Shown here: positions 2,510 to 8,559 of the stretch, one piece after another | Position numbering within the stretch: position 1 is the first letter of the stretch | Layout: each line of letters begins with the position of its first letter | DNA from: a virus | Reading direction: 5' to 3' (one strand) | Length of the DNA: 20,641 nucleotides | Virus record (IMG/VR): IMGVR_UViG_3300033182_000677 | Location: 1 to 20,641 of that record | Notes under the pieces: generated by a model | Told to the model about the DNA's origin: nothing | Seen by the model: the letters and a program-made list of their open reading frames with translations, nothing else | The model's database searches: none | Program-made: the position numbers and the translations under genes

Positions 2510-2737
2510 CTACTGCTTATTGGCTTTTTTCTTTTGATCTGCTTGATGTTCAATTAGAGCAACAATTTTCTTTCTTTGCGATGGTGTAAGATTGTATGAA
2601 CTTTCTATAGTGATGCCGCCATTCATAAACCAAGTCATAAATGTAAGATCATCTTCGATCTTATCTACTTCTTTTTCTAGAGAATTTAAGTACTCTAAGA
2701 TAGAGTCAGAGTCTTGGCGTTGTTTGATGCTTATACG
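2510..2737 (-). CDS. -1 frame extension of the tail assembly chaperone (frameshift product part)
   Basis: This is 75 codons in the -1 frame relative to the preceding gene, beginning within its last codons. In this frame a TGA lies just upstream, and between that TGA and codon 34 of the extension there is no ATG, GTG or TTG, so independent initiation would give only a fragment. The residues are charged and helical (ILEYLNSLEKEVDKIEDDL), then a TFMTWFMNGG segment and a lysine-rich end. The slippery heptamer at 2737-2743 would join it to residue 282 of the upstream protein, giving a fusion of about 357 residues. This mirrors the G/GT arrangement of tail tape-measure chaperones. It is too short to be a full T4 gp51 (about 249 residues by memory). 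Coding is supported by the sensible protein sequence; frameshifting is inferred. Confidence 0.7.
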   Translation of the reverse strand, partial: RISIKQRQDSDSILEYLNSLEKEVDKIEDDLTFMTWFMNGGITIESSYNLTPSQRKKIVALIEHQADQKKKANKQ

Positions 2738-3582
2738 AAAAAATTTGATTGGTCAAATATTAAAGGAACTTCAAGTTCTGACTTAGCACCCGCTTCTACT
2801 AGATGCTCTGGCACTCTTACTTTATATGGTGGAACATCGAACTTTTTCTTTTGATTGCGCAAGTGATTTGCAACAGCATCGTAAGTGACTTTGTCTGTAC
2901 TATAGAAAAACTCACGGATTGCAGTTGGGTTAGTTTCTTCACCGTCGGGAGTTTTAATGCAGTATACCTGTTTACAAATTAGATCTAAATTGTTTTCTGT
3001 TAAGTCATTAAACGCATCTTGTAGCATTTTCTTAATGTTGTCGTCATTAACATCAGATGCTCTTGCGGCTTGTAAAATACGATCAGTATTAAACTGCTTC
3101 ATTTCAAAAATGTTTTGTTCTCTATATTTTAGAGGTGCAGTTAAAAAAGTTAAATCACCAACATTAACAGACTCATCCCACGATTGTTGTGAAATATTGT
3201 CTAAAATTGTTCGTAAGTCAACAGGCACTTCTAATACCTCGTCATCTGTGCCAGGTACAGGCGCTTCTAAATTCATTATTTCGCCGTATGTTGCGATACG
3301 CATAGCAATTAAAATTGCATCTAGATCAATCATTGGAATGTCAAACGGGTCGTCAATTAACGGGCATGCACTTTTAATAGCAGAAGCAGTTGCTTCTCCA
3401 TTCATTAATGCATCAGGAGTACGTAGATAAATTTCGTCTCTAGCGGTCATTGAGTACACAGGAAGTTCGCCTGCACTACTTTTTTCTAGTGGGTTTGATT
3501 TATACCACTGTCCTTTACTAGGCAACGTAATAAAAATTTTCGGTTGTCTAGCATATTTGGATAGCAAGTTATTTTCTGACAT
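2731..3582 (-). CDS. 26: T4 gp26/gp51-like baseplate hub assembly protein / tape-measure chaperone
   Basis: This encodes 283 residues from the ATG at 3582 (MSENNLLSKYARQPK); a TTG four codons upstream is open but lacks support. The N-terminal region with FITLPSKGQWY and the following PVYSMTARDEIYLRTPDALMNG resembles the family of T4 baseplate hub assembly proteins (Pfam T4 baseplate family, which I recall as covering about 208-286 residues). In T4 these proteins help build the central hub on which the tail tube and tape measure assemble. The gene is transcribed away from the tape-measure-like gene from a perfect TATAAATA at 3625-3632. It ends at a slippery heptamer leading into a -1 frame extension, as expected for tail chaperones. 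Whether it corresponds to gp26 or gp51 specifically is uncertain. Confidence 0.85.
   Translation of the reverse strand: MSENNLLSKYARQPKIFITLPSKGQWYKSNPLEKSSAGELPVYSMTARDEIYLRTPDALMNGEATASAIKSACPLIDDPFDIPMIDLDAILIAMRIATYGEIMNLEAPVPGTDDEVLEVPVDLRTILDNISQQSWDESVNVGDLTFLTAPLKYREQNIFEMKQFNTDRILQAARASDVNDDNIKKMLQDAFNDLTENNLDLICKQVYCIKTPDGEETNPTAIREFFYSTDKVTYDAVANHLRNQKKKFDVPPYKVRVPEHLVEAGAKSELEVPLIFDQSNFFV
2737..2743 (-). promoter_or_regulatory. -1 ribosomal frameshift slippery site U UUU UUC
   Basis: On the minus strand the codons AAT TTT TTC GTA TAA end the chaperone gene. The heptamer T TTT TTC is in the exact phase required for tandem -1 slippage, and the zero-frame stop follows after one codon. 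The -1 frame then stays open to 2510. A perfect hairpin ACTCTA-TCT-TAGAGT (2692-2706) lies about 30 bases downstream, further than usual for a stimulator. Confidence 0.65.
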
Positions 3583-3600: not shown

Positions 3601-3624
3601 AAGTTGTACTAGTATACGTGTTTT

Positions 3625-3632
3625 ATTTATAT
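3625..3632 (-). promoter_or_regulatory. T4-type late promoter (TATAAATA) for the leftward tail-assembly operon
   Basis: The minus strand reads TATAAATA, a perfect match to the T4 late promoter used by the sigma factor gp55 with the sliding clamp. It lies 43 bases upstream of the ATG at 3582, a sensible leader length. Confidence 0.75.
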
Positions 3633-3658: not shown

Positions 3659-5956
3659 ATGGATCAAGTCGAATTACTCCAGAGTGGCTTACGTGGCAAT
3701 CGCGGCCCTGCATCAGAAGCAACACTAGATGAAATAGCACGTCTTTTAGGAAAAAACACCGATTCTTTAAAAGATATAGCAGAAACCAAAAAAACGATTG
3801 ACAAAGGTGTATGGGACAAATTTTACAAAGGGCTAACCGGAGCGGCAAACGTTAGTGGTATTGCTGTTGCTCAACTATCAAAATTTGCTAAAAAACAAAA
3901 AGACGTTACTGATTTATCAGCCTATCTAGCAAAACATCTTAGCGGGTTTGGTGAAGGTATCGACGAAGCAACTAATTTAATTTACGATAACTTCAAAGCA
4001 TTTAGAACACTTAGTAAGAGTGGTGTTTTCTTGCAAGATGAAACTATTAAACTAACTGAACGTTATGCGGCAATGGGCATCGATTTAGAAACTTTAACTA
4101 CAAACCTAGGAGCAAACGCTTCTGCATTTGCGGCATTTGGTACAGCAACGCAAGGTGCAAAAATAGCAATGAATGGTGCGGAACTGTTTGCTGGATCACT
4201 AGGATCTCAATTGCAAGCATTTGGATATGACTTTGCTGAAATGAATGAAACATATTTTGATTACCTAAATATGAATGCTTACGCATTACAACGTGGCACA
4301 TCTTCGATAACTAGTCTTGAAGCAGGCGCCGGCACTTATGCAAAATATCTACGTAGACTATCAGACTTAACAGGCCAACAAGCAGATCAGATTGCTGATC
4401 AAATGAAAAAGGCCAATCTCAACGAAGGTTATAAAAACTTCCTTGCTACAATGAGCGAAGGAGAAAGAGAAAGAGCCAACTCGCTTGTAACAGCATATGG
4501 TGCGGCATACGGCGATGCCGGTAGAGAAGCCGCAATGGCCGCAGTTATGGGGTTTGCGCCTATGACTGATGCGTCACAAGAATTAAGTGCTATTTTACCC
4601 GGATTTGCTAACGGTCTACAAGATGCTGTTGGAACTAGTAAAGCATTTAACGGTTCATTAGAAGACTATCAAAAAGGCATTGTTGGTAACTTAACATCAC
4701 AAGCACAAGCAAATCAACAATTTGTAAACAGTACTTCTCAACTAGCCGGTGCTTTGATATTAAGTGGCGATTCTATGGGTAATACATTTAGTGGAATAAT
4801 TGCCGGCAATAATAGATTACTAAAATCTCAAGACGATGTCGAAAAATTATTTTCTGATCCTGCGGCAACAGCAGACGGATTTAACGAAGGTCTTCGCGAT
4901 GCTGATGTAGCAATTAAAGATATGCGTGTTGCTGTATCGCAGGCTGCATCTGCACTAATTGGAGACGTAGGGTTAGAAGGTATGGCTCGAAAGGCTGGCG
5001 AAGCAGTTAAAGAGTTTGGTGACGACTTAATTAGTACTGCTAGAAGAGCCATACGTGGTGGTGCAGGCGACCTTGAATCAGGTGCCGATTCAAACGAGCC
5101 AATTTCAAATACCATGCTTGGCCAACTAGGAGAATACTTCACAAACAAATATACTAGTTTAGTTCAAGACAAAGGCGCCACTACTCCAAGTCAATTTGCT
5201 GGAATTGCAAGAGGACGCAACATCGGAACAAACACTGGCCTAGGCGAAGCAATAAGCACACTACTAAAAGAAAAAGGTGAAGATATTCAAGGTCGCGAAC
5301 AAGAGTATGTAACTGGAATATTACAAAATTATGCTAAAACAAATGAAGCAAACATCAAAGAAAGAATGCAACAATACCTAGATGCTAACCCTGATATCGA
5401 CTTAAATCTAGAACAGTATTGGGATCAAATGATGAAAACGCAAATTCCTAATGCTGTAAAAAATTACTTAGAAACAGCACACGGATTCAACGACGGAACA
5501 ATGGGTGCATTTGGATCATTGTTTGGAAACTTTGGTAAAGGCACTCCTGCAATGCTACACGGTGAGGAAGCAATTATTCCTAAAGATTCACCTATGGGCG
5601 GCATGTTAAGTATGATGCAAGGTGACATGGGCAACATGATGAGCATGATGAAGAATGGCAAGGATGGAAAGCCAAACTTTGGTGCTATGATCGAGGCTGG
5701 CGAGAAAATGGGCGCCAAATATGACACTTATGCCAAAGATAATGCTGGTGCAATGAAAGAACAGGGCAGAAATTTTGCCAAATCGTTTGGAATTAGTGAC
5801 GAACAACTTGACAAGATGGAGGCTCAGAGTGTAAAATCAAATAATACTGCGAATTCTGGTACTTCAATAAATACTGGTACCGGAGGACTTGGACCAAAAC
5901 TAGACGAACTTATTCGACTTAACAGGGATATGCTCGAAGAACTTCGTAATATGTAG
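3659..5956 (+). CDS. Tail tape-measure-like protein
   Basis: The 765-residue protein is rich in Ala and Gly and mostly predicted helical, with an N-terminal region (1-60) of short repeats around LGKNTDSLKDIAETKK and hydrophobic helices at about 155-185 and 270-310. Near residues 615-640 is GKGTPAMLHGEEAIIPKDSP, whose AMLHG-E-AIIP core is seen in many tape measure and tail structural proteins. A methionine-rich segment follows (about 643-665), then a Ser/Gly/Thr linker and a short helical C-terminus. Tape measures set tail length at roughly 0.15 nm per residue, which would predict a tail near 115 nm. A ribosome binding site AGGA lies at 3645-3648. T4 gp29 has 590 residues. The adjacent divergent chaperone supports the call; another virion protein remains possible. 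Confidence 0.7.
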   Translation: MDQVELLQSGLRGNRGPASEATLDEIARLLGKNTDSLKDIAETKKTIDKGVWDKFYKGLTGAANVSGIAVAQLSKFAKKQKDVTDLSAYLAKHLSGFGEGIDEATNLIYDNFKAFRTLSKSGVFLQDETIKLTERYAAMGIDLETLTTNLGANASAFAAFGTATQGAKIAMNGAELFAGSLGSQLQAFGYDFAEMNETYFDYLNMNAYALQRGTSSITSLEAGAGTYAKYLRRLSDLTGQQADQIADQMKKANLNEGYKNFLATMSEGERERANSLVTAYGAAYGDAGREAAMAAVMGFAPMTDASQELSAILPGFANGLQDAVGTSKAFNGSLEDYQKGIVGNLTSQAQANQQFVNSTSQLAGALILSGDSMGNTFSGIIAGNNRLLKSQDDVEKLFSDPAATADGFNEGLRDADVAIKDMRVAVSQAASALIGDVGLEGMARKAGEAVKEFGDDLISTARRAIRGGAGDLESGADSNEPISNTMLGQLGEYFTNKYTSLVQDKGATTPSQFAGIARGRNIGTNTGLGEAISTLLKEKGEDIQGREQEYVTGILQNYAKTNEANIKERMQQYLDANPDIDLNLEQYWDQMMKTQIPNAVKNYLETAHGFNDGTMGAFGSLFGNFGKGTPAMLHGEEAIIPKDSPMGGMLSMMQGDMGNMMSMMKNGKDGKPNFGAMIEAGEKMGAKYDTYAKDNAGAMKEQGRNFAKSFGISDEQLDKMEAQSVKSNNTANSGTSINTGTGGLGPKLDELIRLNRDMLEELRNM

Positions 5957-7977: not shown

Positions 7978-8559
7978 ATGAGCATGGCATTTGTAGTAGG
8001 CAATGGTACGTCTAGACAACATTTAGATCTAAATAAATTAAAAGGCAAAGGCACTATCTATGCCTGTAATGCCGTTTATCGCGACTTTAACCCAGACGTT
8101 TTAATTGCAGTGGATCCTAAAATGATTCACGAAATTGTTGCGTCAGGCTATCATAACAATAATGCAGTATGGACAAATTATAATAATTCGTACAAGGAAT
8201 ATAATAATTTAAACTATTTTGATCCTAGTAAAGGTTGGAGTAGTGGTCCAACGGCATTATATAAAGCAAGTAAAGACAATCACGAAACTGTTTATATTTT
8301 AGGCTTTGATTATATGGGCTTAAAAGACGGCAAGCGATTTAATAACGTATTTGCAGACACACAGAATTATAAAAAGAGCGCAGAGCCAGCAACATACTAC
8401 GGCAACTGGTTAAGACAAACAGAAACTACAATCAAGGCACACCCCCACATCCAGTATATTAGGCTAATTAATACGGGTGACTTTTGTCCTACCCAGTTAA
8501 ATACATACGAAAATTTCAGAAATATTACATATTCGCAATTTGAAAATACACTTTTGTAA
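7978..8559 (+). CDS. Rossmann-like protein resembling DUF115/GT42-type enzymes, unassigned
   Basis: The 193-residue protein starts at 7978 (MSMAFVV) or at the second ATG at 7984; neither has a good ribosome binding site. The N-terminus FVVGNGTSR, then TIYACNAVYRDFNPDVLIAVD, resembles the nucleotide-sugar binding start of sialyltransferase-like GT42 and DUF115 proteins (a Gly-Asn-Gly-x-Ser loop after a first beta strand). A later WSSGPTALYKA and YILGFDYMG fit a second Rossmann-type half. This suggests a small sugar-transfer or nucleotide-binding enzyme, but the active site cannot be confirmed. It interrupts the head gene block between portal and prohead core, ends at tandem terminators, and seems to be its own unit. 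An unrelated Rossmann fold is possible. Confidence 0.6.
   Translation: MSMAFVVGNGTSRQHLDLNKLKGKGTIYACNAVYRDFNPDVLIAVDPKMIHEIVASGYHNNNAVWTNYNNSYKEYNNLNYFDPSKGWSSGPTALYKASKDNHETVYILGFDYMGLKDGKRFNNVFADTQNYKKSAEPATYYGNWLRQTETTIKAHPHIQYIRLINTGDFCPTQLNTYENFRNITYSQFENTLL

Follow-up and report, generated by a model that had tools for sequence, protein, structure and literature searches.

Programmed -1 frameshifting in the tail-assembly chaperones (TACs) of long-tailed phages is a textbook form of recoding. In lambda (G/GT) and P2 (E/E+E'), a single gene with a slippery site near its 3' end gives rise to a short product and to a minority product that is extended in the -1 frame; the lambda slippery site is G GGA AAG. 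For the T4-like phages, gp26 and gp51 were reportedly recognized as the tail-assembly chaperones by Vladimirov, Gautam and Davidson in 2022 (Virology 566:9-15). In lambda, according to a review (PMC5009743), the G part binds the tape measure and the T part the major tail protein. A comparable TAC-N/TAC-NC pair, with a conserved -1 frameshift at a poly-T motif, has been predicted by comparative genomics in phage Adele of the Vandenendeviridae (PMC12846349). The same 2025 paper names Vladimirov 2022 as the source for poly-T signals known from the TAC-N genes of T4-like phages (PMC12846349), and according to PRFect, 'some T4-like phages' use two genes, a short one and a fused longer one, instead of frameshifting. 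Hence, there is reason to doubt the suggestion, made in an earlier sequence-only reading of the locus studied here, that no such frameshift had been described in the gp26/gp51 family: the identity of the chaperones is published and poly-T signals have already been credited to them, which leaves that claim of novelty weak.

The locus lies in a 20,641-nucleotide stretch of viral DNA (IMG/VR record IMGVR_UViG_3300033182_000677), the whole of which we term the window. It very probably encodes a T4-type tail-assembly chaperone expressed as a TAC-N/TAC-NC pair through programmed -1 frameshifting. Its features are as follows:

2731 to 3582, minus strand: TAC-N, the gp26-like 0-frame product of 283 aa, with its ATG at 3582 and its TAA at 2733-2731

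2737 to 2743, minus strand: slippery heptamer T TTT TTC, in the 0-frame phase X XXY YYZ and within the overlap of both frames

2740 to 2746, minus strand: second canonical slippery heptamer, A AAT TTT, which overlaps the first to give the joint decamer AAATTTTTTC

2513 to 2737, minus strand: TAC-C, the -1 frame extension of 75 codons past the shift (RISIKQRQ...KKKANKQ), with its stop at 2512-2510

On the minus strand the 0-frame ends in GAC CAA TCA AAT TTT TTC GTA TAA, while the reading after a slip would be TTT TTT CGT ATA AGC..., i.e. FF-RISIKQRQDSDSILEYLNSLEKEVDKIEDDLTFMTWFMNGGITIESSYNLTPSQRKKIVALIEHQADQKKKANKQ, which runs for 75 codons beyond the site; the 0-frame part together with the extension amounts to a TAC-NC of about 357 aa. 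In the -1 frame a TGA lies just upstream of the site and the first ATG, GTG or TTG is codon 34. The sequence-only reading had noted the heptamer, its phase, the open -1 frame of 75 codons, the upstream TGA and the start at codon 34, all of which we could re-verify; it overlooked the overlapping A AAT TTT. The heptamer count in the window by itself proves nothing, as TTTTTTC occurs there in 8 copies against 10.8 expected by chance and is thus not enriched.

Judged by sequence only, the locus specifies a short form of the protein and one with a C-terminal extension, as is the case for the chaperones of other long-tailed phages. We propose that most ribosomes would terminate at the TAA one codon past TTC, releasing the 283-residue TAC-N, and that a minority would slip back by one base. 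The slip would take place on T TTT TTC, which lets tRNA-Phe (GAA) pair anew with UUU in the P site as well as in the A site, with the overlapping A AAU UUU possibly assisting the slippage. The shifted ribosomes would then read 75 more codons to produce TAC-NC with its predicted helical C-terminal domain. If the pair works like lambda G/GT, the N-terminal part common to both forms would coat the tape measure and the extension would recruit tail-tube subunits. In this scheme we infer the ribosomal nature of the shift, the ratio of the two products and their binding partners. A search for a conserved downstream stimulatory structure or an upstream Shine-Dalgarno-like element found none in the family; downstream folding has a mean z of -1.0 versus about -0.3 in controls, the value for the window being -0.97. 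The comparison with lambda is one of arrangement and not of sequence, with an N-domain of about 280 aa in the window, and the two systems further differ in the slippery site, which is T TTT TTC in the window. The phage Adele system likewise differs in its motif, GTTTTT, and in belonging to another phage family (PMC12846349).

The assignment to the gp26-like family draws on profile searches and on relatives. The window protein matches phrog_150 'baseplate hub' (T4 gp26-like) with an E-value of 1.3e-4, and scores 15.6 bits against the Pfam T4_baseplate family (PF12322), below the cut-off of 24.5; its relatives score 59-79 bits against the same family (E 1e-16 to 1e-22), and the window protein aligns with these PF12322-matching relatives along its full length. 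A tblastn search with the window protein recovered 62 phage records at 21-33% identity (best E 1e-31), mostly from jumbo myoviruses such as RaK2, GAP32, 121Q, PA5oct, Atu_ph07 and Phosso. The structural model of TAC-N has a pLDDT of 89.9 and resembles predicted viral 'baseplate hub' proteins in BFVD. Neither a sequence search of the PDB nor a Foldseek search of the PDB with the TAC-N model gave a significant match. The HK97 tail-assembly chaperone 2ob9 aligns with residues 1-105 of the model with middling scores (Z 6.0, 88/104 residues, rmsd 6.7) and is the only one of the listed structural matches that covers the N-terminal part of TAC-N; this alignment with a predicted structure is suggestive of a chaperone fold. 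We also observed that most relatives in the gp26-like alignments display two CxxC pairs, resembling those of zinc ribbons, near window residues 109 and 257, and that the window protein has lost the cysteines of both. Separately, the BFVD matches to the TAC-N model include proteins of ~450-690 aa from the large phages Ralstonia RSF1 and RP12 and Erwinia phiEaH2 and Special G, which, going by these models, are possibly unrecognized chaperones.

The sequence-only reading had proposed an alignment of the junction in related phages. We performed this alignment and found that the heptamer, its phase and the -1 extension are kept in highly diverged relatives. Scans of viral contigs succeeded when seeded with the relatives L029, L031, GAP32 and P-SSM2, and two such scans yielded 66 and 80 loci, to which 12 and 1 were added from others; scans with the window protein alone or with its alignment recovered no viral-contig relatives, queries with the DNA pattern of window-like junctions or with the extension alone gave no matches, and a distant nucleotide search for relatives of the window likewise gave no match. 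An in-phase T TTT TTC is present in 122 of the 131 non-identical homologous loci, and 97 of the 131 possess both this heptamer and the overlapping A AAT TTT. A separate cyanophage-like set retains the heptamer in 72/72 non-identical contigs. It is from this conservation, rather than from the count in the window, that the site can be said to be non-random. Among the 131 loci, one has T TTT TTT at the site, and seven (L119, L120, L122, L127, L128, L131 and L134) have the junction AAATTTTTCC, which lacks T TTT TTC and retains A AAT TTT; in these, one canonical slippery site has apparently been swapped for another. One further locus is anomalous: in Microcystis phage Mel-JY01 (L012, 2890-3970) a T7 run, AACTTTTTTTGG, precedes the extension, which occupies the +1/-2 frame; this reflects either another kind of shift (-2 or +1) or an error in sequencing the homopolymer.

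The residue preceding the Phe-Phe pair is varied (N, S, H, R, Y, D or T), while its codon ends in T without exception. Among the 110 loci with AAT ahead of the Phe pair, 103 have a codon ending in A just before the AAT, be it for Val, Ser, Ala or Thr, which is what the second heptamer, A AAT TTT, requires. In the clade L097-L176, 76 degenerate columns have a conserved amino acid; of these, the codon is invariant only at the site, in the columns for GTA, AAT, TTT and GCT. Conditional on the amino acids, a lineage would have T TTT TTC by chance with a probability of about 0.13; the joint chance is about 10^-6 for the seven clusters at 40% identity, about 10^-10 when four further families are added, and about 10^-17 for the 18 clusters at 60% identity if these are treated as independent. 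One of the seven 40% clusters is phage CM1, which has T TTT TTT, likewise slippery but a different heptamer. As the two frames overlap here, part of the conservation of the Phe codons could stem from amino-acid constraint; however, this does not account for the T preceding them. The same junctions bear on the alternative that RNA polymerase slips on the T run to yield mRNAs in the other frame. The run of six T at the site would suit such slippage, though six is short for a bacterial polymerase, and the seven AAATTTTTCC loci have only five T and yet keep the tandem heptamer A AAT TTT; moreover, tandem tRNA slippage needs just this phase and the pattern T TTT TTC. We accordingly regard polymerase slippage as highly improbable.

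Beyond the 0-frame stop, the extension evolves as a protein. Across 182 pairs of relatives, the -1 frame has a median dN/dS of 0.096, as opposed to 1.54 and 1.67 for the same DNA read in the other two frames. Hence, the -1 extension of the relatives is under purifying selection; these values are those of the relatives' extensions, since no close relative of the window phage turned up from which dN/dS could be obtained for its own. The extension is modeled as helical (pLDDT 86.5, pTM 0.57), and on its own found no structural match in BFVD. Frame changes at homopolymers being common errors, the junction might be ascribed to a sequencing error or to a decayed gene, but the same arrangement recurs in about 200 non-identical assemblies or isolates and is accompanied by purifying selection; conservation and selection together lead us to reject this explanation for the family, and we consider its probability negligible.

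A different possibility is that the extension is a separate small protein, the 'gp51' of cyanophages, translated by internal initiation or by termination-reinitiation. Several relatives do have an ATG or GTG that overlaps the 0-frame stop or lies close to it, and the extension is entered in GenBank records as a CDS of its own. On the other hand, besides the late first start codon of the window, 89 of 129 loci have no start codon within ten codons past the site, and in the Pseudomonas phages PA5oct and Paride there is no ATG, GTG or TTG anywhere in the -1 frame, which disfavors separate initiation. Further, the -1 relation holds in all examined loci but one and the heptamer is kept, neither of which separate initiation needs, and in T4 the extension is part of gp51, joined there to the same domain. 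These observations render a separate protein very unlikely. Programmed -1 frameshifting in the chaperone gene, as the sequence-only reading had proposed, finds support in the conserved site, its phase and the protein-like -1 frame, all of them, along with the selection on the relatives' extensions, being properties that can be read from the sequences themselves.

Two further features of the window are pertinent to the genomic context:

3624 to 3631, minus strand: TATAAATA, equal to the T4 late-promoter core, separated from the TAC start codon by 41 nt

3659 to 5956, plus strand: divergent 765-aa protein, the tape-measure candidate, between TAC and the portal gene and containing GTPAMLHGEEAIIPKD

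Many relatives have a similar gene order, with a portal, a large structural protein and a divergent gp26-like gene, and an SbcC/gp46-like endonuclease gene nearby. The promoter core is present as a single copy in the window versus 1.9 expected, which is not above chance and weak when taken alone; 51 of 129 relatives have it no more than 130 nt upstream. The chaperone gene of the window is divergent from its putative tape measure, whereas the lambda gene is situated just upstream of it. The GTPAMLHGEEAIIPKD element in the 765-aa protein is a motif known from the C-termini of tape measures. Comparisons of this protein with PHROG and Pfam profiles gave no assignment; the corresponding neighbors in PA5oct, Phosso and the marine phages have no informative profile match, and those in the enterobacterial and Vibrio phages fall in phrog_14121 'virion structural protein'. 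The sequence-only reading had called this neighbor a tape measure, for which the motif and one marginal match speak; since no profile names the protein, the label is plausible and is used here as a hypothesis. Elsewhere in the window, positions 1337-1786, near the gp46-like gene, encode a SegE-like GIY-YIG homing-type endonuclease (PF19835, E 2.8e-35), whose best PHROGs family, phrog_447, bears the name 'NAD synthetase' and looks misannotated, and positions 7978-8559, between the portal and prohead protease genes, show a weak match to a phage alpha-2,3-sialyltransferase (phrog_4603, E 1.5e-5).

The combination of T TTT TTC and a -1 extension extends to the cyanophages P-SSM2 and DSL-LC02, the Aeromonas phages Aeh1 and Ah1, Agrobacterium phage OLIVR5 and Stenotrophomonas phage BUCT608, with Sinorhizobium phage phiM19 showing T TTT TTT at the site. 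P-SSM2 parallels the window in both the terminal T TTT TTC of gp26 and the conserved -1 extension; it differs in being annotated as two genes and in the shorter extension of about 60 aa. Its CDS labeled 'gp51 baseplate hub assembly catalyst' sits in the -1 frame of gp26, and by its position and frame the cyanophage "gp51" appears to be the -1 extension of gp26. The cyanophage extension in turn matches the jumbo-phage extension (hhalign 91% over about 33 columns). In T4 itself, each of gp26 and gp51 is a full-length PF12322 protein, and the C-terminal stretch of gp51 matches the cyanophage -1 extension, with which it shares phrog_634 (hhalign 96.7%). This link was obtained from profile-versus-profile comparisons via the cyanophage sequences, hhalign comparisons of the single T4 gp26 and gp51 sequences with the jumbo profile being too weak to use. 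T4 gp51 thus has the same C-terminal domain as the window-type -1 extension; however, the T4 proteins are encoded by two separate genes on opposite strands, with the long form being an in-frame fusion, and the 3' end of T4 gene 26 lacks T TTT TTC. The simplest inference from these sequences would be that, in T4, gene duplication and in-frame fusion replaced the frameshift. As a side observation, Cygsa01 (L179) and two Ackermannviridae, PhaxI (L181) and Vibrio phage 1.255 (L182), have a -1 extension from the junction on; they lack an X XXY YYZ heptamer, having ATTTTC or CTTTTTC instead, and in two of them an ATG overlaps the stop. The mechanism in these three may be different.

A more sweeping proposal can be advanced only tentatively, and we would sooner doubt than accept it in its entirety: that the T TTT TTC shift is ancestral for the chaperones of the T4-like superfamily (jumbo, cyanobacterial, rhizobial and Aeh1-type), that the cyanophage 'gp51' is not a separate gene, that the T-even 26/51 arrangement is derived, and that all of this is so far unreported.

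To what was already described, the present analysis adds figures for how well the site is conserved in jumbo and marine lineages, a second heptamer that overlaps the first and is present in loci without it, and a connection from the window extension via cyanophage gp51 to T4 gp51. In this way, a recoding event known from textbooks would come to include the T4-type contractile-tail lineage. What are annotated as small 'gp51' genes in cyanophages and jumbo phages would find an explanation as misannotated extensions, and many public annotations could be corrected. The seven loci with A AAT TTT offer a natural experiment on the evolution of slippery sites, and T4 26/51 provides a case where gene duplication has apparently taken the place of recoding.
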